Shown: piece by piece, positions 245-49,030 of the stretch
How positions within the stretch are numbered: position 1 is the first letter of the stretch
How the letters are laid out: each line of letters starts with the position of its first letter
Assembly: GCA_017478725.1 (NCBI GenBank)
Contig: JAFVDD010000003.1
Span: forward strand, 1-49,052
DNA length: 49,052 nucleotides
Reading direction: 5' to 3'
DNA from: Paludibacteraceae bacterium
GTDB taxonomy: Bacteria; Bacteroidota; Bacteroidia; Bacteroidales; Paludibacteraceae
Translations under genes and position numbers: made by a program
The notes under the pieces: model-generated
The model's database searches: none
What the model was told of the DNA's origin: nothing
Seen by the model: only the letters and a program-made list of their open reading frames with translations

Positions 245-326
245 TGAACCCGACATGCTGCCGATCCGATCCCGATCCGATCCCGATCCGATTCTCTCTC
301 GTTAGTGTCTCGCCAGTCTGATTTGG
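245..326. repeat. 11-bp periodic CCGAT repeat with conserved tail, infC-rpmI gap
   Basis: CCGAC/CCGAT occurs at 250, 261, 272 and 283, exactly 11 bases apart. It is followed by a tail (about 288-326) containing CGATTCTCTCTCG, TAGTGTCTCGCCAG and TCTGATTTGG. Nearly the same tail occurs at 30756-30795, and its first half at 48890-48915. On the transcribed strand the tail begins about six bases after the infC stop codon. It therefore forms intra-operon spacer DNA between infC and rpmI. Confidence 0.85.
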
Positions 327-331
327 CGGAG

Positions 332-889
332 TTACTTGCCGCTCTTGGGGCTGAGGTTGAGAATCATGCGCTTGCCCTCGAGGGTAGGCACATTGTCGGG
401 TTTTCCGTACTCGGCGAGGTCGTTGGCAAAGCGTGCCAGGAGGAGTTCACCCTGCTCCTTGAAGACGATGGAACGTCCGCGGAAGAAGACATAGGATTTG
501 ACTTTGTTGCCGTCCTTGAGGAACTCGATGGCATGCTTGAGTTTGAAATTGTAGTCATGGTCGTCGGTTTGCGGTCCGAAACGGATTTCCTTGACTTCCA
601 TTTTCTTGGCATTGGCCTTAGCCTCTTTCTGCTTTTTCTTCTGGGCGTAGAGGAATTTCTGGTAGTCGATGATCCGGCAGACAGGCGGAGTGGCGGTAGG
701 TGCGATCTCGACGAGGTCGAGGTTCTGGTCATCCGCCATGCGCATGGCTTGTTTGAAATCGTAGATACCGGGCTCTACGTTGTCGCCGATAAGGCGTACT
801 TGCAGGACTCCGCGAATTTTGTCGTTGATACGGTGCGGATCCTCTTTGATAACACGACCGCCACGCGGTCTGGGTTGAGGTGTTGCTAT
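332..889 (-). CDS. infC: Translation initiation factor IF-3 (ATA start)
   Basis: The 185-residue protein is IF-3, which binds the 30S subunit and polices initiator tRNA and start-codon choice. The N-domain carries [20 protein letters not shown], then a linker rich in Lys ([20 protein letters not shown]) and the C-domain with [20 protein letters not shown]. The first ATG in frame (745) would delete half of the N-domain. The conserved reading continues upstream to ATA at 889, eight bases after GGAGG, with an in-frame TGA just beyond. A rare AUU/AUA/AUC-type start is the known autoregulatory hallmark of infC. The leader (890-1000) contains a small hairpin (970-984) and a 7-bp CAGCCRT repeat; thrS, often upstream, is absent. 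It is co-transcribed with rpmI from a promoter at 1003-1033. Confidence 0.95.
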
Positions 890-910
890 AGTTTTATCCT
901 CCCAATTATT

Positions 911-941
911 CAGCCTTCAGCCATGAGCTGTCAGCCGTCAG
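911..941. repeat. 7-bp repeat, CAGCCRT family, in infC leader
   Basis: Four consecutive 7-mers (CAGCCTT, CAGCCAT, GAGCTGT, CAGCCGT) plus CAG, in exact register. The same family occurs inside coding sequences at 18899, 19525, 21425, 21644, 22625, 23581, 45204 and 47541. Here it lies in the 5' leader of infC, between the promoter and the GGAGG/ATA start. Confidence 0.85.
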
Positions 942-1002
942 ATTAATAATTATTGACCCTTTTTCGTGTGGGCACACTATGCCCTACCCTTGAAAAAGCG
1001 GA

Positions 1003-1033
1003 CAAAGGTACAACAAATTTTCGACACATGCAA
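1003..1033 (-). promoter_or_regulatory. Bacteroidetes-type promoter for infC-rpmI
   Basis: On the minus strand the -7 box TACCTTTG (1010-1003) is preceded by TTG (1033-1031) with 20 bases between. The -33 region reads TTGCATGTGTCGA, closely resembling the pheS promoter (TTTGCATATGTCGA). It leaves a leader of roughly 110 bases to the infC start. Confidence 0.8.
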
Positions 1034-1069
1034 GAAAAATGCTTTTTTTTTTACTTTTTTCTATAATTA

Positions 1070-1101
1070 TTTGCGCGTGTGAGAAAAAATGTGTATCTTT
1101 G
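1070..1101 (+). promoter_or_regulatory. Bacteroidetes-type promoter for the OB-repeat lipoprotein
   Basis: TTTG at 1070-1073, a 20-base spacer, then TATCTTTG at 1094-1101. It is divergent from the infC promoter and lies 73 bases upstream of the ATG at 1174. Confidence 0.8.
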
Positions 1102-1173
1102 CATGCTTTTTTATGAAAATGCGCATTGTGCACATTCCTTAAACGATATCGAAACACACAAAATAAGAGACAT

Positions 1174-4868: not shown

Positions 4869-6295
4869 TGTTTGCGCGCGTGCGTAATATAAATAAGGAG
4901 AGTACGCCCTCAAAAGGGTTGCTCTCCTTTGTTTCTCCCTGGGCATGGGTGCCGACTCTGTATTTCACGGAGGGTATTCCCTATTTTCTGGTGAACAGTA
5001 TCTCTGTGATGCTGTTTGCCAAGATGGGGGTTCCGAATGACCAATTGGCGTTCTTCACCACCCTGCTCTATTTCCCGTGGTTTCTGAAAGGGCTGTGGAG
5101 CCCGTTTGTGGACATCATCCGCACCAAGCGGTGGTGGGTGGTTGCGATGCAGGCCCTGATGACTGTGTTGTGCCTATTGCTGGTGGTCACGCTGCCAAGC
5201 CCTGACAATCAGACTATTGCCGCCAAAGCCACCTCTGTCGGCACTTTCCGTTGGACACTTGTCCTGTTCATCATCACAGCTTTTGCCTCCGCCACGCACG
5301 ATATTGCAGCCGACGGGTTCTACATGCTGGCGCATGACACGAAAAGCCAGGCGGCTTTCATCGGCATCCGTTCCACTTTCTACCGCATTGCGGCAGTGTT
5401 CAGCCAAGGCGTGCTGGTGTATATAGCCGGACGGATTGAGGACGCCACAGGCGATATACCTCTCTCATGGCGCATCACCATAGGAGTAACCGGTTTGATC
5501 ATGCTGTGCGTGACCCTCTACCACCTCTTCCTGCTGCCCCGTCCGGCGGACGACCGGCCCAGGCAGGTGAAAGGCAAAGAGATCTGGCACGAACTGGGCG
5601 AAGCCTTCGCTACGTTCTTTACCAAGCCAGGCGTATGGCTGGCAATCGCCTTCATGCTGCTGTACCGCCTGAGCGAAGGGTTTCTGGTCAAACTGTGCAT
5701 GCCTTTTCTGGTCGATGCACGCGATACGATTGTCAGCAACGGACGTATCACCGGCGGCGGACTCGGTTTAAGCACCGACACCGTAGGACTGCTCTACGGC
5801 ACCATCGGCGTCATATGCCTGCTGGCGGGCGGCATACTGGGAGGCATCTATATCTCCCGCCGCGGACTCAAACGCTCGCTATGGCTCATGGCGGCGGCGC
5901 TGACTCTGCCGAGTTTCGTATATTGCTACCTGAGCATGGCGCAACCCGAATCGCTCTGGCTCATCGGAGCGGCGGTCAGCTTTGAGAACTTCGGTTACGG
6001 CTTCGGTTTCACGGCATACATGATGTACATGATGCATTTCTCCGAAGGAGAATACAAGACCTCGCACTACGCCATCTGCACGGCGTTCATGGCACTGAGT
6101 ATGATGATCCCGGGCTTTGTGGCAGGCGCTATTGAGGTGGCGGTGGGCTACACGGCGTTCTTCTGGATTGCCAATGCCTGCAGCCTCACGACGTTTATCG
6201 TCACCTGGTTCGTGTACAAAAAACTTGAAAAACAGTCAACTAGTCAGCTAGCCAACTATTCAACTGGAAAAACAACAATATCACTCTATGAATAA
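4868..6295 (+). CDS. MFS permease, AmpG-like
   Basis: 475 residues with about twelve hydrophobic segments. SPWAWVPTLYFTEGIPYFLV opens the first helix and ASATHDIAADGFYML marks the AmpG/acetyl-CoA-transporter-like branch of the major facilitator superfamily. Such proteins import muropeptides in Proteobacteria; the substrate here is not provable. It starts on the last base of ppiD and overlaps pssA by 8 bases, so the three genes form an operon. The C-terminal tail (residues about 456-466, QSTSQLANYST) is encoded by an 8-bp tandem repeat (6235-6266). The same repeat family fills the gap at 33473-33504, so this end of the protein appears to be repeat-derived. Confidence 0.85.
   Translation: MFARVRNINKESTPSKGLLSFVSPWAWVPTLYFTEGIPYFLVNSISVMLFAKMGVPNDQLAFFTTLLYFPWFLKGLWSPFVDIIRTKRWWVVAMQALMTVLCLLLVVTLPSPDNQTIAAKATSVGTFRWTLVLFIITAFASATHDIAADGFYMLAHDTKSQAAFIGIRSTFYRIAAVFSQGVLVYIAGRIEDATGDIPLSWRITIGVTGLIMLCVTLYHLFLLPRPADDRPRQVKGKEIWHELGEAFATFFTKPGVWLAIAFMLLYRLSEGFLVKLCMPFLVDARDTIVSNGRITGGGLGLSTDTVGLLYGTIGVICLLAGGILGGIYISRRGLKRSLWLMAAALTLPSFVYCYLSMAQPESLWLIGAAVSFENFGYGFGFTAYMMYMMHFSEGEYKTSHYAICTAFMALSMMIPGFVAGAIEVAVGYTAFFWIANACSLTTFIVTWFVYKKLEKQSTSQLANYSTGKTTISLYE
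6235..6266. repeat. 8-bp tandem repeat (GTCAACTA family) inside permease 3' end
   Basis: Units GTCAACTA, GTCAGCTA, GCCAACTA, TTCAACTG in exact 8-bp register. The reverse complement of this pattern occurs at 33473-33504. It encodes part of the permease C-terminal tail. Confidence 0.85.
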
Positions 6296-6999: not shown

Positions 7000-7108
7000 T
7001 TGCCTCCGCGTCAAGTCGGGTCAAACGTATACCTTTGCTATACCCTTGCTATACCCTTAGACCACTCCCGGGTGATGCATAAACATACACGATTATTAAG
7101 ATTTTAAT
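7000..7108 (-). repeat. Composite 11-bp repeat element upstream of endonuclease gene
   Basis: Three 11-mers, TATACCTTTGC, TATACCCTTGC and TATACCCTTAG, at 7028-7060. They are followed at 7086-7108 by a 23-base motif (core CGATTATTAAGATTTT). That motif is an exact reverse-complement copy of 20407-20429. Read on the minus strand the order is core motif, then 11-bp units, as at 20407 and 42500. Confidence 0.8.
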
Positions 7109-7118
7109 CCATACCACC

Positions 7119-8942: not shown

Positions 8943-8970
8943 GACGTCAATTTTTACACATTTTTCGTGG

Positions 8971-9009
8971 TTTTGTGCACGCGCACGCGAGAAATATTGT
9001 GTAACTTTG
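8971..9009 (+). promoter_or_regulatory. Promoter for the IgGFc/OmpA envelope operon
   Basis: TAACTTTG at 9002-9009 preceded by TTTTG at 8971-8975. The spacer is 26 bases, not the 20 seen at the other promoters, so the -33 assignment is weak. The -7 position lies downstream of an earlier in-frame codon (8967), supporting the start at 9051. Confidence 0.6.
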
Positions 9010-9050
9010 CACTCGTAAAAAAGTGCAAATCATTTAACGTATCTATGTAT

Positions 9051-11642: not shown

Positions 11643-11660
11643 GCACAGGAGGACACAACT

Positions 11661-13853: not shown

Positions 13854-13860
13854 GGAGAAT

Positions 13861-13945
13861 ATACGGATAAGTAATAATCGTTCCGTATGAATGTACGGAT
13901 AAGAACAGGACCATCACGGGACCATGTTCCGAGAAGAACTTAATA
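13861..13945 (+). repeat. 11-bp periodic element with AATAATCGT core
   Basis: GTAATAATCG at 13871 matches the core of the composite elements at 20407 and 42602. It is followed by 11-mers in register (GGATAAGAACA, GGACCATCACG, GGACCATGTTC, CGAGAAGAACT). This fills most of the gap between the OmpA-family gene and the second IgGFc-like gene. The match is weaker than at the other loci. Confidence 0.55.
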
Positions 13946-13998
13946 AAAGTACAATCAGAACAATTCAAGCCCTCGCGGCTAAACATAAAATAATACGT

Positions 13999-18212: not shown

Positions 18213-19748
18213 ATGATCACATTTATTATTGCGTTAACTCTTTTGGTAGTGGGTTTCCTGACCTACGGCACTCTGGTGGAGAAGATTTTCGGCATTGAGC
18301 CGGAGCGTAAGACGCCCGCCTTGACCAAGACAGACGGAGTGGATTATGTGCCGATGGCACCCTGGCGCATTTTCCTGGTTCAGTTTCTGAACATAGCAGG
18401 CTTAGGTCCGATTTTCGGAGCCATCATGGGTATTTTCTATGGTCCGGCCGCCTTTCTATGGATTGTATTCGGTACTATTTTTGCCGGAGGCGTACATGAT
18501 TATCTGAGCGGCATGCTCTCCATCCGCAAAGGCGGAGCGAGTCTTCCCGACATCATCGGTGACGAGTTGGGCGAAGGCACCAAACTGTTCATGCGTATTC
18601 TCTCGCTTGTGCTGCTGATTCTGCTGACCACCACGTTTCTGAGCGGTCCGGCTACATTGCTGCAAGGCCTGGCGGGATTAGGAACCATGGATTTTCATGG
18701 TCATATGATTCCCATTGTATGGGTATTGATTATTTTCGGCTACTATGCGCTGGCAACCGTTCTGCCGGTAGATCAACTGATAGGAAGGTTCTACCCTATT
18801 TTCGGCGGAATATTGCTGTTTATGGGTATCGGCATCATGATCGTTATGTTAGGCTGGCACAGTTCGGAAATGCCGGAGGTGTGGCATATATGGGATTTCA
18901 GCCATCAGCATTCAGCCTTCAGAACAGGGCGGAGCCTGCCGCTGTTTCCGATGATGTTCGTCAGCATTGCCTGCGGCGCAATCTCGGGTTTTCACGGCAC
19001 GCAGAGCCCCATCATGGCGCGTTGCTGCACCAACGAGCGGCAGGGACGCTGGATCTTCTACGGCGCGATGGTGGCGGAAGGTATATTGGCACTCATTTGG
19101 GCGGCAGCCGCCGGTACGTTCTTTGCCGACCCTGAGAAAGGGCTGTACGGCATTGACGGTTTGCAGGCTTTTGCGGCGCAACATCCGGGCGAGAACATCG
19201 CCGCGCTGGTGATTGACAAAGTGAGCCGCAGCTGGCTGGGCACGATAGGCGGCATCCTGGCTATCATCGGCGTCATTGCCGCGCCTATCACCAGCGGCGA
19301 CACGGCTTTGCGGTCGGCGCGACTGATTGTGGCGGATTTCCTGAAATGGGACCAACGCCCTATTCCCAAGCGCTTGATGATTGCGCTGCCGCTGTTTCTT
19401 TGCGTTTTCGGCATGGTGTTTGTGGATTTCAACGTCGTTTGGCGCTATTTCGCCTGGACCAACCAGACACTGGCGGTGTTCACGCTTTGGGCGGGCACGG
19501 TGTGGCTGTATAAGAAAGAGCTTTCAGCTGTCAGCCGTCAGCTATCAAATCGTTTCGGGTATTTGGTTGCGATGATTCCGGCGCTGTTCATGACGATGGT
19601 CTGCAGCAGCTATATCATCATTGCCCCGGAGGGACTGAATGTAGCGCCTGAGTTCAGATGGCTCGGCTATCTGATTGCCGGCATCGTGACCCTCAGCTGC
19701 CTCTGCGGCTTCTGCCTGTGGGCAAGAAAGGTGAAAGGTGGAAAGTGA
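18213..19748 (+). CDS. cstA: Carbon starvation CstA-family transporter
   Basis: 511 residues; the ATG at 18213 follows GGAGA and lies below the promoter. More than ten membrane helices. Family blocks are clear: FLNIAGLGPIFGAIMGIFYG, IFAGGVHDYLSGMLSIRKGG and FVSIACGAISGFHGTQSPIM. CstA/BtsT proteins import pyruvate or peptides. Two stretches do not belong to the family pattern: residues about 230-240 (SHQHSAFRTGRS) and about 438-447 (LSAVSRQLSNR). Both are encoded by the 7-bp CAGCCRT repeat family and sit in loops. The stop codon lies within a GTGAAAG repeat that also provides the ribosome site of engB. Confidence 0.92.
   Translation: MITFIIALTLLVVGFLTYGTLVEKIFGIEPERKTPALTKTDGVDYVPMAPWRIFLVQFLNIAGLGPIFGAIMGIFYGPAAFLWIVFGTIFAGGVHDYLSGMLSIRKGGASLPDIIGDELGEGTKLFMRILSLVLLILLTTTFLSGPATLLQGLAGLGTMDFHGHMIPIVWVLIIFGYYALATVLPVDQLIGRFYPIFGGILLFMGIGIMIVMLGWHSSEMPEVWHIWDFSHQHSAFRTGRSLPLFPMMFVSIACGAISGFHGTQSPIMARCCTNERQGRWIFYGAMVAEGILALIWAAAAGTFFADPEKGLYGIDGLQAFAAQHPGENIAALVIDKVSRSWLGTIGGILAIIGVIAAPITSGDTALRSARLIVADFLKWDQRPIPKRLMIALPLFLCVFGMVFVDFNVVWRYFAWTNQTLAVFTLWAGTVWLYKKELSAVSRQLSNRFGYLVAMIPALFMTMVCSSYIIIAPEGLNVAPEFRWLGYLIAGIVTLSCLCGFCLWARKVKGGK
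18899..18926. repeat. 7-bp CAGCCRT-family repeat inside cstA
   Basis: Units CAGCCAT, CAGCATT, CAGCCTT, CAGAACA in register. In frame within cstA, it encodes the loop SHQHSAFRT. Confidence 0.8.
19525..19552. repeat. 7-bp CAGCCRT-family repeat inside cstA (second)
   Basis: Units CAGCTGT, CAGCCGT, CAGCTAT in register, in frame. It encodes SAVSRQLS in a cytoplasmic or periplasmic loop of CstA. Confidence 0.85.
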
Positions 19749-19771
19749 AAGGTGAAAGGTGAAAGGGAAAG
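19731..19771. repeat. 7-bp GTGAAAG repeat spanning cstA stop and engB ribosome site
   Basis: Units GTGAAAG, GTGGAAA, GTGAAAG, GTGAAAG, GTGAAAG, GGAAAGA in exact register, ending at the base before the engB ATG. The TGA stop of cstA lies inside it. GGAAAG at its end is the likely ribosome-binding site of engB. Confidence 0.9.
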
Positions 19772-20419
19772 ATGATTATTAGTGCGCAATATATTATTTC
19801 CAGTCCGGATGTGAAGGATTGTCCGCGGACGGACAAGCCGGAGTATGCGTTTATAGGCAGGAGCAATGTGGGCAAATCGAGCCTCATCAATATGCTGTGC
19901 CACAACCCGAAGCTGGCCAAAACAAGTCAGAAGCCCGGCAAGACGCTGCTGATCAATCATTTTAGAATCGAGTTTTCTCCCTCCTCGGCGGAGGCCGCTC
20001 CTCCCGCTTCAACGGGAGGACGCTCCGGGTATCTGGTGGATTTGCCGGGATACGGGTATGCACAGGCGGGACAGAAACAACGGGAGGCACTGAGACGGAT
20101 GATCGAGCGGTATTGCCTGCTGCGCGAGGAACTGGTTTGTCTGTTTGTGCTGATAGACTGCCGGCATGAGGCGCAGAAGATTGATTTGGAGTTCATCAAC
20201 TGGCTGGGCGAGAACGGCGTGCCGTTTGCGATTGTTTTTACCAAAGGCGACAAATTAGGCAAAATGCGGCTGGCAGAGAACGTCGAGGCATACAAAAAAC
20301 GCCTGCTGGAGGAATGGGAAGAACTGCCGCCGGTATTTGTCACTTCGTCAGAGACCAAACTGGGCGGTGAGGAGTTGACCGCTTACATTGAAGGGCTCAA
20401 TGAAGAATTAAAATCTTAA
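19772..20419 (+). CDS. engB: Ribosome-biogenesis GTPase EngB/YsxC with a low-complexity insertion
   Basis: 215 residues. G1 is GRSNVGKSS (29-37), G3 DLPGYG (90-95), G4 TKGD and G5 SSETK. The family binds GTP and assists 50S assembly. Between the switch-I strand (NHFRIE) and the strand before G3 (YLVDLPG), homologues have only a few residues. Here there are about 18 extra ones (68-85, [17 protein letters not shown]). They are encoded by GC-rich inverted repeats at 19976-20033 (CCTCCTCGGCGGAGG and CTCCCGCTTCAACGGGAG). The insert is in a surface loop, so activity is probably kept. The last codons and stop (TTAAAATCTTAA) lie inside a repeat element core. Confidence 0.94.
19976..20033. repeat. GC-rich hairpin insertion in engB
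   Basis: Two adjacent short hairpins, CCTCC-TCGGC-GGAGG and CTCCC-GCTTCAAC-GGGAG, within the reading frame. They code for residues absent from the usual EngB pattern. Confidence 0.7.
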
Positions 20420-20500
20420 TAATCGTGTACTTTTACGCCCCTGTATTACCCCCGACAAAACCCCGATTTACCCCCGATATAACCCCGATATTCCCCCGTA
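20407..20500 (+). repeat. Composite 11-bp repeat element between engB and TonB receptor
   Basis: The core motif (20407-20429; contains AATCTTAATAATCGTGTAC) is followed by CCCG at 20451, 20462, 20473, 20484 and 20495, exactly 11 bases apart. The element includes the engB stop codon and ends at the receptor start codon. Its core is an exact inverted copy of 7086-7108. The whole element aligns with the reverse complement of 42500-42602. Confidence 0.88.
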
Positions 20501-27523: not shown

Positions 27524-27529
27524 CATCGT

Positions 27530-27597
27530 GTTTTTCATGGTATTAGATTTAAGGTTAAATGAAAAGATTGGGTTGTCGTGAGACAACCTTCTTTTTT
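27530..27597 (+). ncRNA. Candidate small RNA or leader peptide transcript
   Basis: Between the promoter at 27492 and the hairpin plus T-run at 27571-27597 lie about 65 transcribed bases with no conserved protein. A 34-codon reading frame starts at the ATG at 27560 and runs through the terminator into the repeats, so a short peptide is possible but weakly supported. Function unknown. Confidence 0.45.
27571..27597 (+). terminator. Intrinsic terminator of the small transcript
   Basis: GGTTGTC-GTGA-GACAACC stem-loop followed by TTCTTTTTT. Confidence 0.82.
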
Positions 27598-27740
27598 ATC
27601 TTTTGTACGAGTGTAACGAGTAGAAAAGATAAAGAAGTTCAACCTTCTTTTTTATCTTTTGTACGAGTGTAACGAGTAGAAAAGATAAAGAAGTTCAACC
27701 TTCTTTTTTTATCTTTTGTACGAGTGTAACGAGTAGAAAA
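27584..27740 (+). repeat. Three tandem 56-bp units, each with an internal hairpin
   Basis: CAACC starts units at 27584, 27640 and 27696 (period 56). Each unit contains CTTCTTTTTTATCTTTT, a loop with ACGAGTGTAACGAGT, and GAAAAGATAAAGAAG, which pairs with the first arm. The first unit begins with the tail of the terminator at 27571. The array therefore looks like triplication of a terminator-hairpin segment. The third unit has one extra T and a diverged end. No spacers are present, so it is not a CRISPR array. Apart from this array and the promoter, small transcript and terminators, the gap 27413-27796 shows nothing else. Confidence 0.9.
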
Positions 27741-28562: not shown

Positions 28563-28610
28563 GTTAGAGAGTTAAAGAGTTAGAGAATTAGAGAGTTAGT
28601 GAGTTATTTT
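28563..28610. repeat. 8-bp GTTAGAGA repeat filling the SDR-membrane gene gap
   Basis: Units GTTAGAGA, GTTAAAGA, GTTAGAGA, ATTAGAGA, GTTAGTGA, GTTATTTT in exact register. It occupies essentially the whole gap between the genes and includes the SDR stop codon. Confidence 0.9.
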
Positions 28611-30718: not shown

Positions 30719-30798
30719 CGATATTGTTCCGATTTGGTATTGACGTAGTCCCGACTCGATTCTGTCTCGATAGTGTCTCGCCAGTCTGATTTGGATTG
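30719..30798. repeat. 11-bp element with conserved tail between reductase genes
   Basis: Units start at 30719, 30730, 30741 and 30752. They are followed by a tail containing CGATTCTGTCTCG, ATAGTGTCTCGCCAG and TCTGATTTGG, nearly identical to 288-325. On the coding strand the tail begins shortly after the 5-alpha-reductase stop, just as at infC. Confidence 0.85.
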
Positions 30799-33462: not shown

Positions 33463-33472
33463 GATTGGTATA

Positions 33473-33504
33473 GTTGACTAGCTGACTAGCCGACTAGTTG
33501 ACTA
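33473..33504. repeat. 8-bp tandem repeat (GTTGACTA) between HAD and acyltransferase genes
   Basis: Units GTTGACTA, GCTGACTA, GCCGACTA, GTTGACTA in exact register. It is the reverse complement of the family at 6235. The TAG stop of the HAD gene lies inside the array. Confidence 0.92.
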
Positions 33505-34096
33505 GTAAAAATTCAGCACCGACGGCACGTGCGGAGGCTCCGTCTTTATCATCCCTGTCGCCAATGAAGATAGTTGTCTGCGGGTCTGCCGAGAGCGCCT
33601 TCATCGCTTTCTCCGCTGAAGTTCTAGCAGGTTTGAGAGCTCCGGTAGAGGGAGCATCCATTCGCAATGAGAAAAGCGAAAGATCCATACCTAACGCACG
33701 GAGTTTGTCGTCCACACAGCCATAATCGGAATAGACTGCCATCGTCACTATGTTTCTGTCGATATTGTCAATGAGAGACAGTACTTCGGCTCGCGGCTTG
33801 CAATATTTGGCGATGAGGTGAATCATGGCGGGCAGATAGATGTGGTGATACCATTTCTCTGCCATACCGGCAGTCCACCAGTGTCCACGCGCCATTTGCA
33901 CAAAGAATGCTTGATAGAAAGCCTGCTCGGAGCCGAACACACGATTGTGCATGGTCCTCCGCGCCACTCTCTCTGCCGCCAGCAACGGCAAACACCACCA
34001 AAGCCGGCGTACCATACGATGCGCCAAACCGCGCTTGTCGTAGATAGTGCCGTCCAAATCGAAAATAACAGTCCTTATGTTGTCAGGAATTTTCAT
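33494..34096 (-). CDS. HAD-superfamily hydrolase
   Basis: 200 residues. The ATG at 34096 is preferred over an in-frame GTG at 34129. It gives a 14-base overlap with the GH3 gene and begins close to motif I. Motif I is VIFDLDGTIYDK, motif II the AVYSDYG segment (here AVYSDYGCVDDKLRALG), motif III the Lys in GALKPARTSAEKA, and motif IV IFIGDRDDKDGASARAVGA. A helical cap lies between I and II. This is the phosphatase-type HAD fold (phosphoglycolate-phosphatase-like); substrate unknown. The final codons LLVN-stop are read from the 8-bp repeat. Confidence 0.88.
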   Translation of the reverse strand: MKIPDNIRTVIFDLDGTIYDKRGLAHRMVRRLWWCLPLLAAERVARRTMHNRVFGSEQAFYQAFFVQMARGHWWTAGMAEKWYHHIYLPAMIHLIAKYCKPRAEVLSLIDNIDRNIVTMAVYSDYGCVDDKLRALGMDLSLFSLRMDAPSTGALKPARTSAEKAMKALSADPQTTIFIGDRDDKDGASARAVGAEFLLVN

Positions 34097-38900: not shown

Positions 38901-39273
38901 GGCTGATTTGTTTGCCCAGCGTTTTCTGGTCCACTGATTTGGGTACATCCAGATCGAAAACCGTGTAGGTGCTATCCGCGTTGTAGCGGTAGCTCACGCC
39001 GTGCACGTCCGGATAGGCATCCAACAACGATGTTATACCGGGTATCTCCTGCGGACTGACTCCTTCGAACATCACATGCACATCCGAGCCGGACATCTGC
39101 GCCGCCGAGCCGAACTCGGACGTTACAATCTCCAGTCCGCTTTTCATTTGCGAATCGTCCGGCAGGTACTTGGTCAGGTCTGCATTGACATTGACATGTC
39201 CCATCAATATGCCGCAAACGATGGTCAGTGCCACCGTGATTGCAAACAATATGTAATGAGTTGTCCGTTTCAC
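35926..39273 (-). CDS. MMPL/RND-superfamily exporter with repetitive linker
   Basis: 1115 residues beginning with GTG at 39273 (VKRTTHYILFAITVALTIVC reads as fMet-KRTTH). Two halves each have one helix, a periplasmic domain and five clustered helices (about 145-330 and 920-1090). SLDYCIVLLNRYRQE and GATIDYGILLANYYREY are the matched helix-4 Asp-Tyr motifs of MMPL transporters. Such proteins export lipids or hopanoids using proton flow. The linker about 690-760 is Pro/Lys/Glu/Val-rich (AKPVEPVALAEPVKPAKP) and encoded by 9-bp periodic DNA. The GTG start and upstream bases belong to a 7-bp repeat that fills the gap after rluB. Confidence 0.9.
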   Translation of the reverse strand: MKRTTHYILFAITVALTIVCGILMGHVNVNADLTKYLPDDSQMKSGLEIVTSEFGSAAQMSGSDVHVMFEGVSPQEIPGITSLLDAYPDVHGVSYRYNADSTYTVFDLDVPKSVDQKTLGKQISHRFGDTCVVETSQDGATPPVSVMIIAAVLIMLVLFLMAQSWFEPVVILVSTLMAVVLNMGTNALLPSVSITTNFIGSILQAVLSLDYCIVLLNRYRQEQDEHTDRRTAGIAANKAVRLAAPSILSSALTTVVGLLMLCFMRLKIGADMGIVLAKGVVCSLVCTFTVMPSLMLLFRKTINRTAKKAYVPPTDALSQFVTRHKITMAVGAVLLFFASWYFSHTTTIFFSAEKNSRIEEVFPALNPIVLVYDTHEEEKILQLADSLSAQPGVQTLVSYPTLMCEELTPAEQTRHIQSLMEMLSGMMPPDAPKPTADQLALLSPETMQLLYYMRSVQGQPQQPLRFPDLARFLHSHCVNNPLFASYIDDDMRQQVELLQSMLDMPAPAPQPEPEPAPVSQEQAEEQDTIIIRDTVPVDPLIVEATPIVMDTLVTPILDVNRIAIVPFVGTLYANQPNPVTLELRKLADTIAIRLPMSVKEMSLFIGSSQIQTQLVYGYAPGKTKQLTPLQYVHLLKDDLFKRPGLAGMINDEQRRQLEQRAYLMDLADQNASLTPNELNILLHSFGLDNYTDEQLFALANPVQLAKPVEPVALAEPVKPAKPSAIALPEDEAIALEQSAEAEQAVSTEPVEEPVKHEHKPSREDLQAELFTELVFGEEAYSPVEMAGKLARLMALSGVKTAPVTADQMSLLYDYYGAVHSSCDTMRMGLDKLLVYVCDTLVNDARLATIIPDSARSQIAGVRTQVMDGIGQMRLPDHSLLVLLTTLPYESAQTYEFVENLTAIADEHLNNEHYYVGESVMYAEMRAGFNHEMNIVTLLTILSIFLIVAITFRSFIVPTILVVTVMTAVYVNVVVSGLVAGKMLYLAYLVVQAILMGATIDYGILLANYYREYRRTMLPNDAVMAAYRGSIRTITTSGLIMVIAPAVMALLIDDLMISNIVGCIAVGAFVAIVLILTVVPAILVALDKWVIYGKENRFETSAGQADELQQNKNEQE
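37085..37190. repeat. 9-bp periodic DNA coding a KPxEPx linker in the MMPL protein
   Basis: Consecutive 9-mers such as GGTTTGGCC, GGTTTGACC, GGTTCTGCC, AATGCCACA, GGCTCCACA, GGTTTGGCC. They give a three-residue protein period. This is the only period-9 case seen; unlike the 7-, 8- and 11-bp arrays it keeps the frame. Confidence 0.7.
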
Positions 39274-39310
39274 CTTTGAATTTTCGCCTTTAACCTTTCG
39301 TCTTTAACCA
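39270..39310. repeat. 7-bp GTTAAAG/GTGAAAC repeat filling the rluB-MMPL gap
   Basis: On the minus strand: GTTAAAG, ACGAAAG, GTTAAAG, GCGAAAA, TTCAAAG, GTGAAAC. It runs from the base after the pseudouridine-synthase stop to the MMPL start codon, and the last unit contains the GTG start. It is related to the array at 19731. Confidence 0.88.
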
Positions 39311-40351
39311 TTACTCAAACGCTCCCATTTGCAGCATTGCCACCTCTTTGGGATTGAGGAAGCGGTATTTGCCGCGTGCTACGTTTTTCTTGGTCAAGCC
39401 GGCGAACGAAACGCGGTCCAGCGACACCACTTTATATCCCACTTTCTCAAACATACGGCGTACTACGCGGTTCTGACCGGAATGGATCTCCAGTCCGATA
39501 TGCTTGCGGTCCTCTTTGGGGAATTCCAGCGCATCGGGAATGATACGCTCGTCATCCAGAACGACGCCTGCACGCAGAATAGCCTCGTCCACTGCCTCCA
39601 GATCGCGGTCCAGCGTAGCGGCATATATCTTTTTCTTGTTGAACTTGGGATGTGTCAGTTTGGCTGCCAGATCGCCGTCATTGGTCAGCAGCAGCACACC
39701 GGTAGTGTTGCGGTCGAGACGGCCTACCGGATAAATACGCTCGGCACAAGCGTTGCGGACAATATCAATCACCGTGTGACGCTCCTGAGGATCGTCAGTG
39801 GTAGTGACGGTGTTCTTCGGCTTGTTGAGCAGGATATACACTTTGTGTTCGCGGCGCACGGGCTGGTCGTGGAAACGTACCTCATCGGTAGGGAACACTT
39901 TTGCTCCCAGAGAATCCACCACTTGTCCGTTTACGGTTATCACACCGGCCTGGATAAAATCATCCGCCTCACGGCGAGAGCAGATGCCGGCGTTAGCCAG
40001 ATATTTGTTGAGACGAATGGGTTTCGTAGGGTCTTCGTTCTGACGATTGTATGTGTAGCGTTTCTGTGCGGAATACACGTTCTGGTTGCGCTTGGGTTTG
40101 TTGAAACGCGGACGCTGCTGCTGATCCTGCTCACCCTCACGGCGGAAACGCGGACGCTGGGGATAAGACTGCGTTTGTTCGCCCTCTCGGCGGAAACGCG
40201 GACGCGGATTGGTGCCATCCTCACGTTGGAAACGGGGACGAGACGTCGGTTCGCCCTCACGGCGGAAACGCGGACGCGGAGCACGTTCGCCCTCATGGCC
40301 GAAGCCTGAGGGACGGTGGTTGTGATTGTCGGATTGAAAATCGTTGTACAT
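39311..40351 (-). CDS. rluB: RsuA/RluB-type pseudouridine synthase with Arg-rich N-terminal extension
   Basis: 346 residues. Residues 1-100 are a charged, repetitive extension (several copies of RPRFRREGE) likely to be disordered and RNA-binding. The S4 domain starts about residue 111 (IRLNKYLANAGICSRREADD). The catalytic domain has the GRLDRNTTGVLLLTNDGDLA loop with the nucleophilic Asp, and ends ARGKYRFLNPKEVAML. It converts a specific uridine of 23S (or 16S) rRNA to pseudouridine. Such an extension is frequent in Bacteroidetes members. The exact target cannot be told, so the symbol is approximate. Confidence 0.88.
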   Translation of the reverse strand: MYNDFQSDNHNHRPSGFGHEGERAPRPRFRREGEPTSRPRFQREDGTNPRPRFRREGEQTQSYPQRPRFRREGEQDQQQRPRFNKPKRNQNVYSAQKRYTYNRQNEDPTKPIRLNKYLANAGICSRREADDFIQAGVITVNGQVVDSLGAKVFPTDEVRFHDQPVRREHKVYILLNKPKNTVTTTDDPQERHTVIDIVRNACAERIYPVGRLDRNTTGVLLLTNDGDLAAKLTHPKFNKKKIYAATLDRDLEAVDEAILRAGVVLDDERIIPDALEFPKEDRKHIGLEIHSGQNRVVRRMFEKVGYKVVSLDRVSFAGLTKKNVARGKYRFLNPKEVAMLQMGAFE

Positions 40352-42459: not shown

Positions 42460-42499
42460 TATATGCCGAAATTTTGTACAATTTTTAAGAATTAGCATG

Positions 42500-42602
42500 T
42501 CGGAAGCACATCGGGAGTACATCGGGAGTACATCGGGAGCATATCGGGGTTTTATCGGAACATGAATACGAGCGGAAAAATATACGATTATTAAGATTTC
42601 CC
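42500..42602 (-). repeat. Composite 11-bp repeat element upstream of pheS
   Basis: TCGG occurs at 42500, 42511, 42522, 42533, 42544 and 42555, exactly 11 bases apart. It is followed at 42581-42602 by TACGATTATTAAGATTTCCC. Read on the minus strand (core, then CCGAT units) it aligns over about 100 bases with 20407-20500. The remaining gap 42603-42719 contains TATTAGATTTTAAGATA and no gene that I can see. Confidence 0.9.
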
Positions 42603-44792: not shown

Positions 44793-44820
44793 TATTATTT
44801 GTACTTTTTTCAATTGACGA

Positions 44821-44900
44821 CACGGCGACATGACGACATGACGACATGACTACATGGCGACATGGCGAGACGGCGAGATGGCGACATGGTGACATGGTGA
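44821..44900. repeat. Ten-unit 8-bp array (CATGGCGA family) between divergent promoters
   Basis: Ten consecutive 8-mers in exact register: CACGGCGA, CATGACGA (twice), CATGACTA, CATGGCGA (twice), GACGGCGA, GATGGCGA, CATGGTGA (twice). It lies between the divergent DUF805 and lptD promoters. Units vary at positions 1, 5, 6 and 7 and always keep A2, T/C3, G4 or equivalents. Confidence 0.95.
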
Positions 44901-45002: not shown

Positions 45003-48000
45003 ATGCGCTTACGCGAACGTGCACATATAATAATGTGGGTTATTTTCCTGCTCTGCCCGGTGGCAGCGTGGGGGCAACAGATATCCCCCTCCACCGCAGG
45101 GAGGGAGGGAAGCCCCACTCCAACCCGCCCCACAAGGGAAGCAGGCTACACGGATGGCGTGTATTTGGACTACGCCCCTACCCCCGACAGTATAGGAGGT
45201 ATTCAGCCGTCAGGAGTCAGCCCTCATCCATCTGACACAACATGGGTAAAGACGGATAGCGTGGGTAACCCCACCCCGCCCCTCACCACCATGGAGGGAG
45301 AAGGGAATGGCGAAGGGCGGACCGACAGTTTGGCCACTGACAGTCCGGCTACTGACAGCACCGGCAATCCTATGGCAAACAAAAGCAGCGGAAAAATCAG
45401 CGGACCTATACACTATCAGTCGAACGACTCGCTGGTGATGCTCAAGAACGGAACGGCATTCCTGCACGGTCAGGGAGAACTGAAATACCAGTCGATGGAA
45501 TTAACGAGCGACTATATCCGCGTGAACCTCGACAGCAGCCAGATTTATGCACGGGGTGTGTATGACTCGCTATACTACGAATGGAAAGGCCAGCCTGTAT
45601 TCAAAGACGGCAACGAGAGTTATGAGACCAGCGAAATAACCTACAACATCAAAACGCAGAAAGGTTATATCCGCCGTGTGATCACCCAGCAGGGCGAGGG
45701 CTACATCATTGCCGACAAGACCAAGAAAGTGGACGACGAAGTAATGATGATGGGCGGCGGTCAGTACACCACGTGTGACAATCACGACCACCCGCATTTC
45801 TACCTGAAGATGACGAAAGCCAAAGTAAAGCCCGGCAGCTATATCGCTACCGGTCCGGCCTATATGGTGGTAGGCGACGTACCGCTGCCGCTGGCTATTC
45901 CGTTCGGTTTCTTCCCCTTTACGAACAAATACTCGTCGGGCCTGATTATGCCTAACTTCGGCGATGACTACACCCGAGGTCTGTATCTGACCGGTTTGGG
46001 CTATTATTTCGCCATCAACGATTATATGGACTTGCAGGTAACCGGCGATATTTATACGCGCGGCACATGGGCTATCCGCGCACAGAGCAAATACATCTGG
46101 CGGTATCATTTCTCGGGAAGCTTGAACATCAGTTACCGCAACGATGTGACGGGTGAAAAAGGGTTGCCGGATTACGCCGTGAGCAAGAACTTCCAAGTTC
46201 AATGGACCCATACCCAGGACAGCAAGTTCAATCCGTACAACACATTCTCTGCGAGCGTCAATTTTGCCACCAGCGGTTACAACCGCAGCAATATCAACAG
46301 TTACTACAACGCCAACCTCTATTCAGAGAACACCAAGAGCAGTAGTATCAGTTATACGCAGCGTTTCCCAGACAGTCCTTGGAGCCTGAGCGCGACAGCC
46401 AACCTGACGCAACGAACCAAGGACTCAACCATTTCATTGACCCTGCCGGAGTTGGCGGTGAGCATGAGCAGTATCTACCCGTTCAAGCTGGCACGCGACG
46501 CCACGCTCAAACGGCAAGGCAAAGTGCGTACCGGCAAAGAGAAATGGTATGAGAAAATCAAGATGAGCTACACCGGCAACGGCCGTATAGCCGTCAGCAG
46601 TATCAAGGAAAAAGATTTCCTCCATTCGAATTTCCTGCGCGACTGGCAAACAGGATTGAAGCACAACATACCTATCAATGCCAGTTTCATGCTGTTCAAA
46701 TACCTGAGTGTGACGCCGAATATCAACATGACCGACCGTATGTATTTCCAACGCATCGACCGCAACTGGAACGAAGTGGAGCAACAACTGCAAATGGACA
46801 CCACGTACGGATTTTACAACGTGTTTGATTTCAATGCCGGACTGAGCATGAGCACCAAGATATACGGATTCTACACTCCGTTGAAGCGTTTGTTCCCCAA
46901 AGGCAAGGTAGAGAAATTCCGGCATGTAATCACTCCAAGACTGAGTGTCAGTTACCACCCAGACTTCGGGAAAAGCGGCTGGGGCTATTACGGCAGTTAC
47001 GACCAGCCTGTGTATAGCGGCACGGACAGCATCACCGGCCGTCAGATACAAAAAGTGGATGACGCGGGCAATCCGGTTTACCAGCACCAGGTCTATTCGC
47101 GTTTCCCGAACGGCATCTACGGCAACGCCACGAGAGGTTTGTCAGCCACGTTGAGTTTCGGCGTGGACAATAACCTGGAGATGAAAGTGGTGAACAAAGA
47201 GGACACTACCGGCAAAGCGCCGTACAAAGTAGTCAGCCTGATAGACAACCTCGGCATCTCCGGCGCCTACAACTTTGCAGCCGACAGTATGAACTGGAGT
47301 CTGTTCCAAGTGAACCTGCGTTTGAAATTCCCGAAGCTGAACAATTACAGCCTCAACCTAAGCACAACGCTTGACCCGTACATGTATGAGCTGAACGCGT
47401 TGGGCAATCCCGTACGAACCAACAAGCAATACTGGCACAACGGCCGTTTCCCGCACTGGAGCGGACTAAGATGGAACTTCAGTTACACCATTTCCAACCA
47501 GACTATCAAGAAATGGAAAGAAAAGGCAGAAGGGCGTAGAAAGCCGTCAGGCGTCAGCGATCAGCCATCAGAAGACGATAGTGGCGGAGCGAACACGGAA
47601 AACATGGTGCGCAACGAAGACGGCACGATGAGCAACGGCAAACTGAACAGCGGCAAGAACAGTACCACCGAAGAGTTGGATGACGGCTACGTGAGAACAG
47701 AGATTCCGTGGAGCATCAGTCTCAGTTATTCGCTGGCATATGCACCGGGCAGCACATTCGACTACGACAGGATGTACTACAAGATGCAGTTTACCAACAA
47801 CCTGAGCCTGAACGGCAACATCGGTTTGGGCAAAGGATGGAAAGTGAGTGCATCAATGACCTATGATTTCAACTATATGCGCGTGACGAGCTGTACTTTC
47901 AACGTGAGCCGTGACCTGCACTGCTGGAACATGAGCGCCAGCATCAACCCTATCGGTCCGTTCAAGAGTTACACCTTCCATATAGGCGTGAACGCATCCA

Positions 48001-48068
48001 TCCTGAGCGACCTGAAGTATGACACCAACAGCAACCAGCGAACCAACGCCCGCGTGAACTGGTGGTAG
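45003..48068 (+). CDS. lptD: LPS-assembly outer-membrane protein LptD with repeat-rich N-terminus
   Basis: 1021 residues from the ATG at 45003; signal MRLRERAHIIMWVIFLLCPV ending AAWGQ. The OstA-like beta-jellyroll starts only near residue 133 (IHYQSNDSLVMLKNGTAFLH, then GYIRRVITQQGEGYIIADK). It is followed by the conserved plug/barrel junction AIPFGFFPFTNKYSSGLIMP and a long barrel. LptD inserts lipopolysaccharide into the outer leaflet. Residues 27-130 are low-complexity (PSTAGREGSPTPTRPTREAG; GGIQPSGVSPHPSD). Their DNA holds a CCTCC/GGAGGG hairpin, a CAGCCRT repeat and a GGGAATGGCGAAGGG run. A second CAGCCRT insert (KPSGVSDQPSEDD) is at about 847-858 in a barrel loop. Confidence 0.92.
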   Translation: MRLRERAHIIMWVIFLLCPVAAWGQQISPSTAGREGSPTPTRPTREAGYTDGVYLDYAPTPDSIGGIQPSGVSPHPSDTTWVKTDSVGNPTPPLTTMEGEGNGEGRTDSLATDSPATDSTGNPMANKSSGKISGPIHYQSNDSLVMLKNGTAFLHGQGELKYQSMELTSDYIRVNLDSSQIYARGVYDSLYYEWKGQPVFKDGNESYETSEITYNIKTQKGYIRRVITQQGEGYIIADKTKKVDDEVMMMGGGQYTTCDNHDHPHFYLKMTKAKVKPGSYIATGPAYMVVGDVPLPLAIPFGFFPFTNKYSSGLIMPNFGDDYTRGLYLTGLGYYFAINDYMDLQVTGDIYTRGTWAIRAQSKYIWRYHFSGSLNISYRNDVTGEKGLPDYAVSKNFQVQWTHTQDSKFNPYNTFSASVNFATSGYNRSNINSYYNANLYSENTKSSSISYTQRFPDSPWSLSATANLTQRTKDSTISLTLPELAVSMSSIYPFKLARDATLKRQGKVRTGKEKWYEKIKMSYTGNGRIAVSSIKEKDFLHSNFLRDWQTGLKHNIPINASFMLFKYLSVTPNINMTDRMYFQRIDRNWNEVEQQLQMDTTYGFYNVFDFNAGLSMSTKIYGFYTPLKRLFPKGKVEKFRHVITPRLSVSYHPDFGKSGWGYYGSYDQPVYSGTDSITGRQIQKVDDAGNPVYQHQVYSRFPNGIYGNATRGLSATLSFGVDNNLEMKVVNKEDTTGKAPYKVVSLIDNLGISGAYNFAADSMNWSLFQVNLRLKFPKLNNYSLNLSTTLDPYMYELNALGNPVRTNKQYWHNGRFPHWSGLRWNFSYTISNQTIKKWKEKAEGRRKPSGVSDQPSEDDSGGANTENMVRNEDGTMSNGKLNSGKNSTTEELDDGYVRTEIPWSISLSYSLAYAPGSTFDYDRMYYKMQFTNNLSLNGNIGLGKGWKVSASMTYDFNYMRVTSCTFNVSRDLHCWNMSASINPIGPFKSYTFHIGVNASILSDLKYDTNSNQRTNARVNWW
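45088..45106. repeat. CCTCC-CCGCAGGGAGGGA hairpin motif inside lptD
   Basis: CCTCCACCGCAGGGAGGGA, in frame; 18 of 19 bases match the intergenic copy at 40725 when a two-base gap is allowed. A third related copy is at 45281-45299. Confidence 0.6.
45204..45233. repeat. 7-bp CAGCCRT repeat inside lptD (N-terminal)
   Basis: CAGCCGT, CAGGAGT, CAGCCCT, CATCCAT in register, encoding QPSGVSPHPSD. Confidence 0.78.
47541..47575. repeat. 7-bp CAGCCRT repeat inside lptD (barrel loop)
   Basis: AAGCCGT, CAGGCGT, CAGCGAT, CAGCCAT, CAGAAGA in exact register, encoding KPSGVSDQPSED. Confidence 0.85.
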
Positions 48069-48080
48069 GGCGAAGCGGAG

Positions 48081-48180
48081 CGTTGCGATAGCAACTCCGC
48101 GAAGACCGCGCGTCCCCAACGCGCCCTCCCGTCCGCGCCCAGCGCGGAAGCCACGGTCTCTGCGGAGTTCTATCGCAACG
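48081..48180. repeat. Long GC-rich inverted repeat between lptD and slyD
   Basis: The arm at 48081-48108 (CGTTGCGATAGCAACTCCGC then GAAGACCG) pairs with 48154-48180 (CGGTCTCTGCGGAGTTCTAT then CGCAACG). There is a one-base gap and about two mismatches. The 45-base loop is GC-rich with CGCG tracts. No T-run follows, so it is not a classical terminator. It resembles a REP-like foldback. Confidence 0.85.
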
Positions 48181-48237
48181 AGTGGAAGGGGAAAAAAAGA
48201 AAAAATAAGACAAGAAAACAAATAAACAATAATAGAT

Positions 48238-48840
48238 ATGAAAATCGAGAACCAAACAGTAGTGAAAGCCACGTACGAGTTGTACATCAACGGCGAGGGT
48301 GGCAAAGAAGAGTTAATGGAGAAAATGACGGAGGAAGCTCCGTTGGTATGGTGCCAAGGCGAAGGGATGATGCTTCCCGCCTTTGAGGCTGCGATGGCAG
48401 GCAAAGAGGCAGGCGATGCGTTTGACTTTGTTCTCAAAGCCGAAGATGCCTACGGCGAGTATCTGGAAGAAGGAGTAATGGAACTGCCGAAGAAGATGTT
48501 TTACAACGGAGACGGCGAGTTTGACGATGAGCGTGTGTATGTAGGAGCCGTCGTGCCGATGAACACCGTGGACGGTCAAATAGTGAAAGCACAGGTTTGT
48601 GAGATTACCGACGAGAAAGTGACCATTGACCTCAATCATCCCTTCGCAGGCGAGGATCTGCATTTCAAGGGCAAGATTCTGGAACTGCGTGCGGCTACAG
48701 AGGCAGAGTTGGATGCCATCCGTCATCCGCGACGCGGTTGCGGAGGCTGCGGAGGATGTAATAGCGAAGGGAAAAAGGCGAATGGCGAATGTGGTAGTTG
48801 CGGAGAAGGCGGCTGCGGCAGTTGCGGAGGATGCGAATAG
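48238..48840 (+). CDS. slyD: SlyD-type FKBP peptidyl-prolyl isomerase with Gly/Cys metal-binding tail
   Basis: 200 residues. The FKBP core begins MKIENQTVVKATYELYINGE. It contains GMMLPAFEAAMAGKEAGDAF, the insert-in-flap domain (EDAYGEYLEEGVMELPKKMF) and DLNHPFAGEDLHFKGKILEL, the SlyD signature NHPLAG. The tail (about 168-200) is rich in CGGC and CGSC, ten or more Cys, suited to binding Ni or Zn. It is a cytoplasmic folding helper and metallochaperone. Part of the tail (about 181-185) is coded by CGAATGGCGAATG of the GAATGG repeat family (48779-48792). It is preceded by the foldback at 48081. Confidence 0.93.
   Translation: MKIENQTVVKATYELYINGEGGKEELMEKMTEEAPLVWCQGEGMMLPAFEAAMAGKEAGDAFDFVLKAEDAYGEYLEEGVMELPKKMFYNGDGEFDDERVYVGAVVPMNTVDGQIVKAQVCEITDEKVTIDLNHPFAGEDLHFKGKILELRAATEAELDAIRHPRRGCGGCGGCNSEGKKANGECGSCGEGGCGSCGGCE
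48779..48792. repeat. 7-bp CGAATGG repeat inside slyD
   Basis: CGAATGG, CGAATGT in register, in frame in the Gly/Cys tail. Short copy of the family at 20649. Confidence 0.6.
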
Positions 48841-49030
48841 TACCGAGTTGTACCCGATTTGAACCCGAGATGTTCCCGAGATGATCCCGATCCGATTCTC
48901 TCTCGATAGTGTCTGACTAAACCTGAAAAAGGTTGACTCGAAAACTGAGTTAGGATCTTAAAAATCGTAAACTTTTGACTCGATACCTAAAAAGGTTGAC
49001 AGGAGACCGAAAAAGGTTTACTCATTTGAA
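48841..49030. repeat. 11-bp CCGA element plus AAAAAGGTTGAC repeats at right edge
   Basis: CCGA at 48843, 48854, 48865, 48876 and 48887 is exactly 11 bases apart and begins right after the slyD stop. The tail GATTCTCTCTCGATAGTGTC matches 292-311. Then come a core variant ATCTTAAAAATCGTAAAC (48956-48973) and three AAAAAGGTTGAC-like units; the last two are 22 bases apart. No gene is seen in this stretch. Confidence 0.88.

Follow-up and report, generated by a model that had tools for sequence, protein, structure and literature searches.

The 49,052-nucleotide stretch analysed here, referred to below as the window, is a whole contig (C30; GenBank JAFVDD010000003.1) within a 2.16 Mb draft genome assigned to a Paludibacteraceae bacterium, and short degenerate tandem arrays with units of 7 to 11 bp occur both in its intergenic gaps and in its conserved genes. 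The question raised by this stretch is whether these arrays reflect a single process that adds periodic DNA to spacers and variable gene segments, as a first-pass annotation had proposed, or several distinct ones. The periodic arrays are confirmed as real and genome-wide in this Bacteroidales genome, and they are not one system, since two classes, with units of 11 bp and 7 bp, coexist in the same genome.

Two classes of periodic array

Arrays were counted in 447 kb of the genome, comprising the window and 20 further stretches (398 kb), with order-4 Markov copies as controls (10 of the window and one per further stretch). In the window, the lag scan detected six arrays of period 7, five of period 8, and six of period 11, with Markov means of 0.0–0.1, and Tandem Repeats Finder returned 53 rows, some overlapping; in the 398 kb, the same periods gave 80, 29, and 24 arrays versus 0, 0, and 1 in the Markov copies. 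After reduction of multiples, the 447 kb sample contains 95 arrays of period 7, 32 of period 8, seven of period 9, one of period 10, and 30 of period 11, periods 5, 10, and 13 being almost devoid of arrays, and a stricter lag scan lowers the number of arrays and leaves the peaks unchanged. Many of the 20 stretches were chosen with a list of CAGCC-family matches in view, which biases the density of that family upward there, but counts of patterns and reversed patterns over the whole genome are free of this bias: two CAGCCRT units in tandem (at most one mismatch) match 206 times versus five with the reversed pattern, TCGG-N7-TCGG-N7-TCGG matches 220 times versus one, and one more pattern 125 times versus none. 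Thus, the arrays stand far above both kinds of control and are not a product of chance.

Most of the unit families first reported for the window were recovered. CAGCCRT does occur at nine loci, seen here as TCAGCNN clusters at 910, 18898, 19524, 21429, 21643, 22624, 23585, 45203, and 47547, and TCAGCNN has 33 matches, a few of them outside these clusters, versus 3.5 expected, AAAGGTG having 14 versus 4.3. The 11-bp CCGAT unit, for which at least five loci had been claimed, is recurrent, with 14 matches versus 0.27 expected, but its strong loci are four (250–291, 20452–20499, 42500–42558, and 48843–48890), with a single match outside them; GAATGGC also recurs, at three loci instead of four by the pattern used here, and the GTCAACTA/CTAG unit is present at its two loci, although CTAGNNNNCTAG with one mismatch does not exceed chance (6 versus 10). 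Arrays had also been said to fill gaps, and that at 19726–19775 runs from the stop of the cstA-like gene (gene end 19748) to the next ATG (19772), those at 28563–28606, 33471–33506, and 39268–39312 occupying gaps of about 30–60 bases. The same units recur at distant loci, as 809 of the 4465 pairs of period-7 arrays are alike, whereas random genomic 7-mers give 92 such pairs on average and units with shuffled letters 82.

The two classes differ in location. In the 447 kb, 89% of which is called coding, the split between coding and intergenic arrays is 45:50 for period 7, 8:24 for period 8, and 0:30 for period 11, and the 163 gaps of at least 60 bp include 26 with a period-11 array, 31 with a period-7 array, and 16 with a period-8 array. 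Moreover, the 11-bp class varies independently of the 7-bp class, since the congener G126 is poor in 7-bp and rich in 11-bp arrays (four versus seven in 200 kb), the corresponding numbers in G175 being 35 and nine; in 20 other genera of the family (up to 20 kb each, 257 kb in total), periods 7, 8, and 11 gave 10, 1, and 6 arrays. One window-wide system is therefore not supported: the 11-bp arrays are nearly absent from genes, and to a large extent they form part of dispersed intergenic elements in their own right.

In 19 of the 30 period-11 arrays, TCGG is found in register in all 61 full units, the unit being ATCGGRNNNNN with variable spacers. According to a simple gene caller, all 30 period-11 arrays of the 447 kb sample lie between genes, as do nine of nine in G175, and six of seven in G126, as are 12 of 15 new distinct loci from three genomes (two additional loci of the present genome in that set already belonged to its sample). 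Three TCGG cores in register occur in 71 of the 81 genomes of the genus, with 1 to 220 matches each, and the reversed pattern mostly gives 0–3, except in G237 (2 versus 42 in the control), G187 (20 versus 12), and G200 (23 versus 8); in other genera, the pattern is at background, with 10 of 32 genomes having 0–4 matches each, like their controls. Among the listed places, the seven bases between the cores differ across species and recur on several contigs of a genome, as TCGGGTGCTSA in G222, TCGGTCCGTTR in G228, and TCGGTTGACCG in G220, the spacers of the present genome being more mixed than those of these three.

The regions flanking the 11-bp arrays are also shared, given that 19 of 30 array places have flanks alike at another place, compared with 3, 7, 0, and 6 of 30 in four draws of control gaps, a similarity to which leftover units in the flanks could add. 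Three flank types were distinguished in this genome. Type A carries TATCATACCC, and four of its five copies also have a tail resembling the palindrome TATAATATACATAGTATATTAT; type B is AATCTTAATAATCGT, present as direct copies on both sides of the array; and in type C, GCGAGACACTATCGAGAGAGAATC precedes the array. The type B motif AATCTTAAWAATMGT (one mismatch) matches 15 times in the 447 kb and never in the Markov copy; every match adjoins an 11-bp array, 14 of them with a TCGG pair nearby and one next to the TATACCCTTGC array at 7028, and five of six type B pairs are spaced 96 or 107 bp, a difference of exactly one unit, the sixth being spaced 166 bp. The 11-bp loci of G222 have a shared leader of their own, and no terminal inverted repeats were evident by eye in the aligned flank types A, B, and C. 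The type A palindrome TATAATATACATAGTATATTAT, or a version with one change, follows the array at L098 7751, L102 17667, L104 116, and L107 19025, and could fold or bind a dimeric protein. A promoter-only role of the 11-bp arrays was rejected, because some are located between convergent genes and their orientation varies.

The 7-bp class comprises several families with a fixed core and free positions. In the TCAGCNN unit (39 arrays, 133 units), TCAG is conserved at 96–100% and is followed by C (88%), then by C, T, or A, and then by A, G, or T. Coding sequence holds 29 of the 39 arrays, all of them reading TCAG on the coding strand because the other strand has stops, and, in codirectional gaps, the coding strand carries 10 of 11 AAAGGTG arrays, six of eight TCAGC arrays, and seven of nine arrays of the 8-bp CGACATG family. 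CAGCCRT pairs are abundant (76–206 matches) in five of 35 same-genus genomes and reach 24–28 in four more, the samples of other congeners containing AAAGTCG, AACAGCC, AATTNNN, AAATCTC, or TACTGAN families instead. G-tracts of the G-quadruplex or GGGNATC type are lacking in the main 7-bp families TCAGCNN, AAAGGTG, AAAGTCG, and AATTNNN. CpG decay is not a general explanation of the R in CAGCCRT, as the CpG of TCGG and of CATGTCG is among the most conserved parts.

The spacers of TCAGCNN arrays have a likeness of 0.649 between adjacent and 0.578 between non-adjacent units of an array, versus 0.589 between arrays, and thus differ within an array about as much as between arrays, which, for this family, bears out the earlier statement that slippage alone is insufficient; in the 8-bp and 11-bp arrays, likeness is 0.76 and 0.71 within loci versus 0.50 and 0.45 between loci. 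The TCAGCNN arrays show neither clear fresh single-unit duplications nor clear block copies.

Some arrays depart from the usual length of four or five units or are composite. At L091, from 336 onward, about 28 units mix AAAGGTG and AAAATTG, and a short GC hairpin (AAAGACCGC...GCKCAAAGAC) breaks up some 7-bp arrays of the AAAG type in L128, L129, L010, L115, and L118 (receptor loop 2, defined below) and also in L203, L200, and L093, a like composite occurring at other loci and in other species. This composite may be a separate small element; searched as a regular expression, the AAAGACCGC composite did not exceed the Markov level in the present genome (8 matches versus 14), G126 (3 versus 2), or G210 (1 versus 2), and gave 5 versus 2 in G175. 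Hairpins within 12 bp of arrays were also compared with expectation. At 7-bp arrays, they were found in 18 of 95 cases in the present genome (12.4 expected), one of 36 in G175 (4.9), seven of 26 in G210 (3.8), and two of four in G126 (0.4); at 8-bp arrays, in 12 of 36 (6.6) and, in G175, five of 10 (1.4); and at 11-bp arrays, in six of 34 (4.9) and, in G175, three of 11 (1.1). Hairpins were therefore rejected as array seeds, there being no consistent excess at 7-bp arrays and some excess at 8-bp arrays.

Receptor segments across congeners and the setting of the window

The TonB-dependent-receptor-like gene allows the same segments to be followed in 57 orthologs (56 for loop 1), the closest pair being 95% identical. 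The term loop stands here for a part of the receptor alignment that varies and is bordered by conserved blocks, and the loops were picked because arrays had been seen there. Period-7 arrays occur in four of 56 orthologs in loop 1, and in 22, 10, six, and one of 57 in loops 2 to 5, compared with none in 1022 receptor segments outside the loops, where three arrays of other periods were found. Together with the gene calls of the 447 kb sample, this agrees with the earlier view that the targets are variable gene segments and spacers. It had also been stated that the pattern would amount to chance or composition bias if orthologous loci carried the same sequence without periodicity; many congeners do lack an array at the same segment, and others have a different one, which indicates gain and loss and not composition bias.

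The spelling of these segments changes between close relatives. Loop 2 contains CAGCCRT, AAAGTCG, GGTGAAA, AAAATCA, AAGAGTC, CAGCAGT, or no array, depending on the ortholog; L010 and L114, which are 88% identical, have different array families in loop 3; and loops 2 and 3 both hold arrays in L163 but not in L161 (92% identical). The array swaps between congeners look recent. When orthologous loci were sought through array flanks, only 27 of the present genome's 222 arrays had a partner. Upstream of the receptor gene, 11-bp arrays are present in 18 of 57 orthologs and 8-bp arrays in seven of 57, with mostly different sequences, versus five of 285 random windows for each period, these windows being mostly coding.

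Loop 1 is the one clear case in which all units changed in parallel in an array that was kept. L114, L162, L110, L159, and the window have in common an irregular spacing of 8, 7, and 7, and positions 26, 34, 41, and 48 are all C in L114 and L162, all G in L110, all A in L159, and all G in the window (the arrays of L159 and L162 score just under the threshold of the ortholog count). Loss and re-expansion of units are disfavoured, since the irregular spacing would hardly survive them; the parallel change could stem from transient misalignment, from a donor array acting by conversion, or from selection favouring a changed core. A 9-bp CTAG array in the present genome and G175 offers a second, less strong example.

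The arrays and elements of the window are collected in Table 1.

Table 1. Periodic arrays, flank motifs, and array-bearing receptor gene of the window.
Feature	Position	Strand	Remarks
11-bp array (TCGGN7) with type C flank GCGAGACACTAACGAGAGAGAATC	250..313	-	
7-bp TCAGCNN array	909..942	+	
8-bp CTAGNNNN array	6234..6265	-	Close to end of MFS transporter gene
11-bp array TATACCCTTGC	7028..7058	+	Type B flank motif copy at 7089-7103
7-bp TCAGCNN array	18897..18923	+	Within cstA-like gene
7-bp TCAGCNN array	19519..19547	+	Within cstA-like gene; relatives have other arrays or a hairpin-like insert at that place
7-bp AAAGGTG array	19726..19775	+	Across cstA-like stop and gap before GTPase gene
Type B intergenic element	20412..20522	+	Direct repeats AATCTTAATAATCGT (20412) and AATCTTAAAAATAGT (20508), 96 bp apart
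11-bp CCCCGAT array	20446-20498	+	Inside type B element
TonB-dependent-receptor-like gene (plug domain)	20593..23055	+	Arrays in variable segments
Receptor loop 1: GGCGAAT array	20647..20678	+	8/7/7 spacing
Receptor loop 2: TCAGCNN array	21425..21460	+	Other units in congeners
Receptor loop 3: TCAGCNN array	21638..21665	+	
Receptor loop 4: TCAGCNN array	22619..22649	+	
7-bp TCAGCNN array	23585..23610	+	Within mutS
8-bp GTTAGAGA array	28563..28606	-	Fills intergenic gap
Type C flank (one mismatch) and weak 11-bp units	30758..30781	-	
8-bp CTAGNNNN array	33471..33506	+	Fills intergenic gap
7/14-bp array	39268..39312	-	Gap between MMPL gene and rRNA pseudouridine synthase gene
11-bp TCGGG array	42494..42598	+	Upstream of pheS; one type B flank motif at 42584-42598
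8-bp CGACATGR array	44818..44900	+	Upstream of lptD-like gene
Weak 7-bp TCAGCNN array	45203..45228	+	lptD-like gene
7-bp TCAGCNN array	47547..47572	+	lptD-like gene
11-bp array	48843..48968	-	Type C flank (48894) and type B-like motif (48954)

The gene content of the window looks ordinary (MutS, a CstA-like protein, a TonB-type receptor, LptD, PheS, and tRNA-Val), and its MutS shares 88–90% identity with the MutS proteins of five Bacteroidales bins (RUG552, UBA3808, RGIG3530, RUG11936, and RUG372), among which RGIG3530 is a goat-rumen bin carrying the label Paludibacteraceae; by this likeness, the host is an uncultured Bacteroidales, probably of gut origin. A FopS-family small RNA (RF04319, 75.7 bits) at 27528–27600 runs into the first bases of a 56-bp tandem repeat at 27584–27740 (2.8 copies, 99% match), and an imperfect 36-bp repeat of 3.5 copies at 40177–40303, within the 5' portion of the gene for the rRNA pseudouridine synthase, is probably a low-complexity protein stretch. 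At 8967–16929, an OmpA-family gene is flanked by two large genes for IgGFc-binding/PKD proteins, with an endonuclease I gene adjoining.

Candidate origins of the arrays

The explanation given most weight, although held at somewhat less than even confidence, combines 11-bp arrays that are dispersed elements with 7-bp arrays written by short-patch copying from a species-specific pool of units. The 11-bp arrays, mostly (TCGGN7)n, would to a large extent be the tandem part inside small intergenic elements that have conserved flanks and are dispersed over the genome; copies of these elements would reach new gaps and then gain or lose units locally in 11-bp steps; the shared flanks and recurring spacers suggest such movement, present or past. 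The 7-bp arrays, and perhaps also those of 8 and 9 bp, undergo rapid gain, loss, and rewriting in variable gene segments and gaps, most likely when repair or replication involves template switching or ectopic conversion, with similar units elsewhere in the genome as the source. A match of four or five bases is proposed to seed this copying, which would account for conserved cores next to free spacers, and selection would then purge gene-breaking arrays. The copying or patch-filling process of the first-pass annotation may still apply to the 7-bp class, for which it is inferred from the recurrence of units, the swaps, and the constraint on the core.

Several results weigh against this combined explanation. 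Whole-block copying is not shown, since two-unit runs of TCAGCNN spacers are shared at chance level (129 versus 141 ± 19) and three-unit runs 18 times versus 12.4 ± 4.5, the shared-run test detecting no block copying of TCAGCNN haplotypes; 7-bp arrays share flanks no more than control rates in the flank test; and local duplication also acts, as the 8-bp and 11-bp arrays are far more alike within loci. Regarding the 11-bp elements, three of the 15 new loci and one of seven in G126 fall inside genes called by the simple gene caller, leftover units may inflate the likeness of flanks, the elements could be linked to no transposase or recombinase, and no empty site showing a duplicated target came to light. 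At one threshold, 16 of 57 orthologs have an upstream 11-bp array versus 26 of 163 gaps of the present genome, a modest excess that weakens the idea of arrays occupying a fixed site in front of this gene. Moreover, the loop swaps could be allele exchange between species.

Replication slippage followed by decay of long simple sequence repeats (5–11 nt), with heptamers favoured by polymerase geometry, is an unlikely alternative that nevertheless retains some weight. It would account for the homogeneity of 8-bp and 11-bp arrays within loci and for the peak at period 7 and the gap at period 10, and several bacteria have heptamers as their most frequent long repeats, slippage having been proposed for them (PMC4679880, PMC4692102). 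However, unrelated loci have the same unit families, TCAGCNN spacers are nearly independent within arrays, conservation is position-specific and not a uniform decay, and the 8/7/7 spacing is kept though all loop 1 units changed. The MutS of the window has all its Pfam domains, which also speaks against slippage and led to the rejection of mismatch-repair loss as a cause; a Y-family polymerase was rejected as well, given that IMS is present in 10 of 10 genomes, including the array-poor G126.

It seems rather unlikely that the arrays are selected binding sites, in which an oligomerising DNA- or RNA-binding protein would read the core at a fixed spacing and drift of its specificity would generate species families. 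Heptads bound by omega and iterons bound by ParR have such 7- and 11-bp lengths. A fixed core with free spacers, a genus-wide TCGG core at about one helical turn, and the parallel change of all loop 1 units would fit such a protein, as would the centromere sites of 7–10 iterons and the plasmid-dispersed iterons already described (PMC5016525, PMC3235114), yet several unrelated families occur within one genome, 29 of 39 TCAGC arrays lie in coding sequence, and the 11-bp arrays have no consistent orientation or gene position. A sequence-specific writing process, as opposed to accidental copying, could instead make and maintain the arrays: a trans-acting factor or a nicking-and-copying enzyme, recognising a core of 4–5 bases, would add 7-, 8-, or 11-bp units where they are tolerated and rewrite every unit of an existing array when its specificity shifts, a possibility considered improbable.

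Allele exchange is judged improbable as the main source; congeners within one gut would recombine segments and gaps, so that arrays arrive by homologous recombination and only the place of their first making would be left to explain. The loop 3 arrays of L110 and L114 are identical at 29 of 31 bases in genes that are 78% identical, and L128 and L129 share the same loop 2 array at 85% identity, both in agreement with exchange, but the occurrence of one family at many unrelated loci of one genome is left unexplained, as is the origin of the units. Reiterative copying by a telomerase-like reverse transcriptase from a short RNA template is very improbable: the combination of core and degenerate positions resembles the products of misincorporating telomerases, and RVT_1 matches exceed the cut-off in the present genome, G210, and G187, yet RVT_1 is found in four of 10 genomes (one below the cut-off) without tracking array density, and the array-bearing drafts G175, G021, G134, G235, and G200 have no match. 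Chance or composition bias, which fits only the 8-bp CTAG pattern of the window (not above chance at one mismatch), can practically be dismissed, as the main families are near zero in the Markov and reversed-pattern controls.

Relation to known repeats and significance

Cyanobacterial short tandemly repeated repetitive (STRR) sequences and long simple sequence repeats of 5–11 nt likewise show heptamer preference and dispersal, and the analogy with the cyanobacterial repeats drawn in the first-pass annotation is apt; long simple sequence repeats were reportedly the subject of work by Mrazek in 2007. Heptamer arrays and minisatellite-bearing elements are already published (PMC4679880, PMC4692102, PMC4596501), and both classes described here are variants of them.

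The 11-bp elements resemble BrickBuilt of Porphyromonas gingivalis, a mobile-element-like, minisatellite-bearing miniature inverted-repeat transposable element (MITE) with a leader, tandem units, and a tail (PMC4596501). Both belong to Bacteroidales hosts, are intergenic, and have many dispersed copies, imperfect spacerless tandem units with conserved and non-conserved sites, and conserved flanks (PMC4596501). However, the unit of BrickBuilt is 23 bp, as opposed to 11 bp with a TCGG core; at least three flank types occur here in one genome, one of them a direct-repeat pair; and the spacers vary by species under a genus-wide core.

The GGGNATC heptamers of Xanthomonas and Nostoc are degenerate and dispersed, prefer four units, are located within some Nostoc genes, and occupy positions common to relatives with variable length and sequence (PMC4692102). 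The 7-bp arrays share with them the degenerate units, the four-unit preference, the genome-wide dispersal, and the positions kept in relatives, but the TCAGC and AAAGTCG families have no G-tracts, several families coexist, nearly half of the 7-bp arrays are in genes, and a family can be replaced at the same segment in congeners. TAACTGA heptamers are known from Beggiatoaceae, cyanobacteria, and some Bacteroidetes, with two sets in Paludibacter (PMC4679880), and are also short, strain-specific arrays, many of them close to start codons; in Beggiatoaceae, essentially one heptamer is found, mostly intergenic (PMC4679880), whereas many families of core and free positions occur here, also in frame in genes. 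An ortholog series with segment-by-segment replacement of arrays was not met in the texts consulted, and nothing on such swaps between congeners or on TCGG 11-bp elements was found in the open-licence literature.

The heptamer studies consulted leave open how bacterial heptamer arrays are born and spread (PMC4679880, PMC4692102). A genus with many species, in which the same receptor segment has different arrays or none, makes birth, loss, and rewriting datable on gene trees, and the concerted change of units at an unchanged irregular spacing is hard to square with simple slippage. With the 11-bp elements and their genus-wide core, repeats that bear minisatellites and resemble mobile elements are no longer confined to Porphyromonas. 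For annotation, it matters that conserved genes receive from the arrays segments that look foreign, as well as stops and start regions. If a sequence-specific writing process is at work, array loci would outlast speciation, with their spelling changing in concert.

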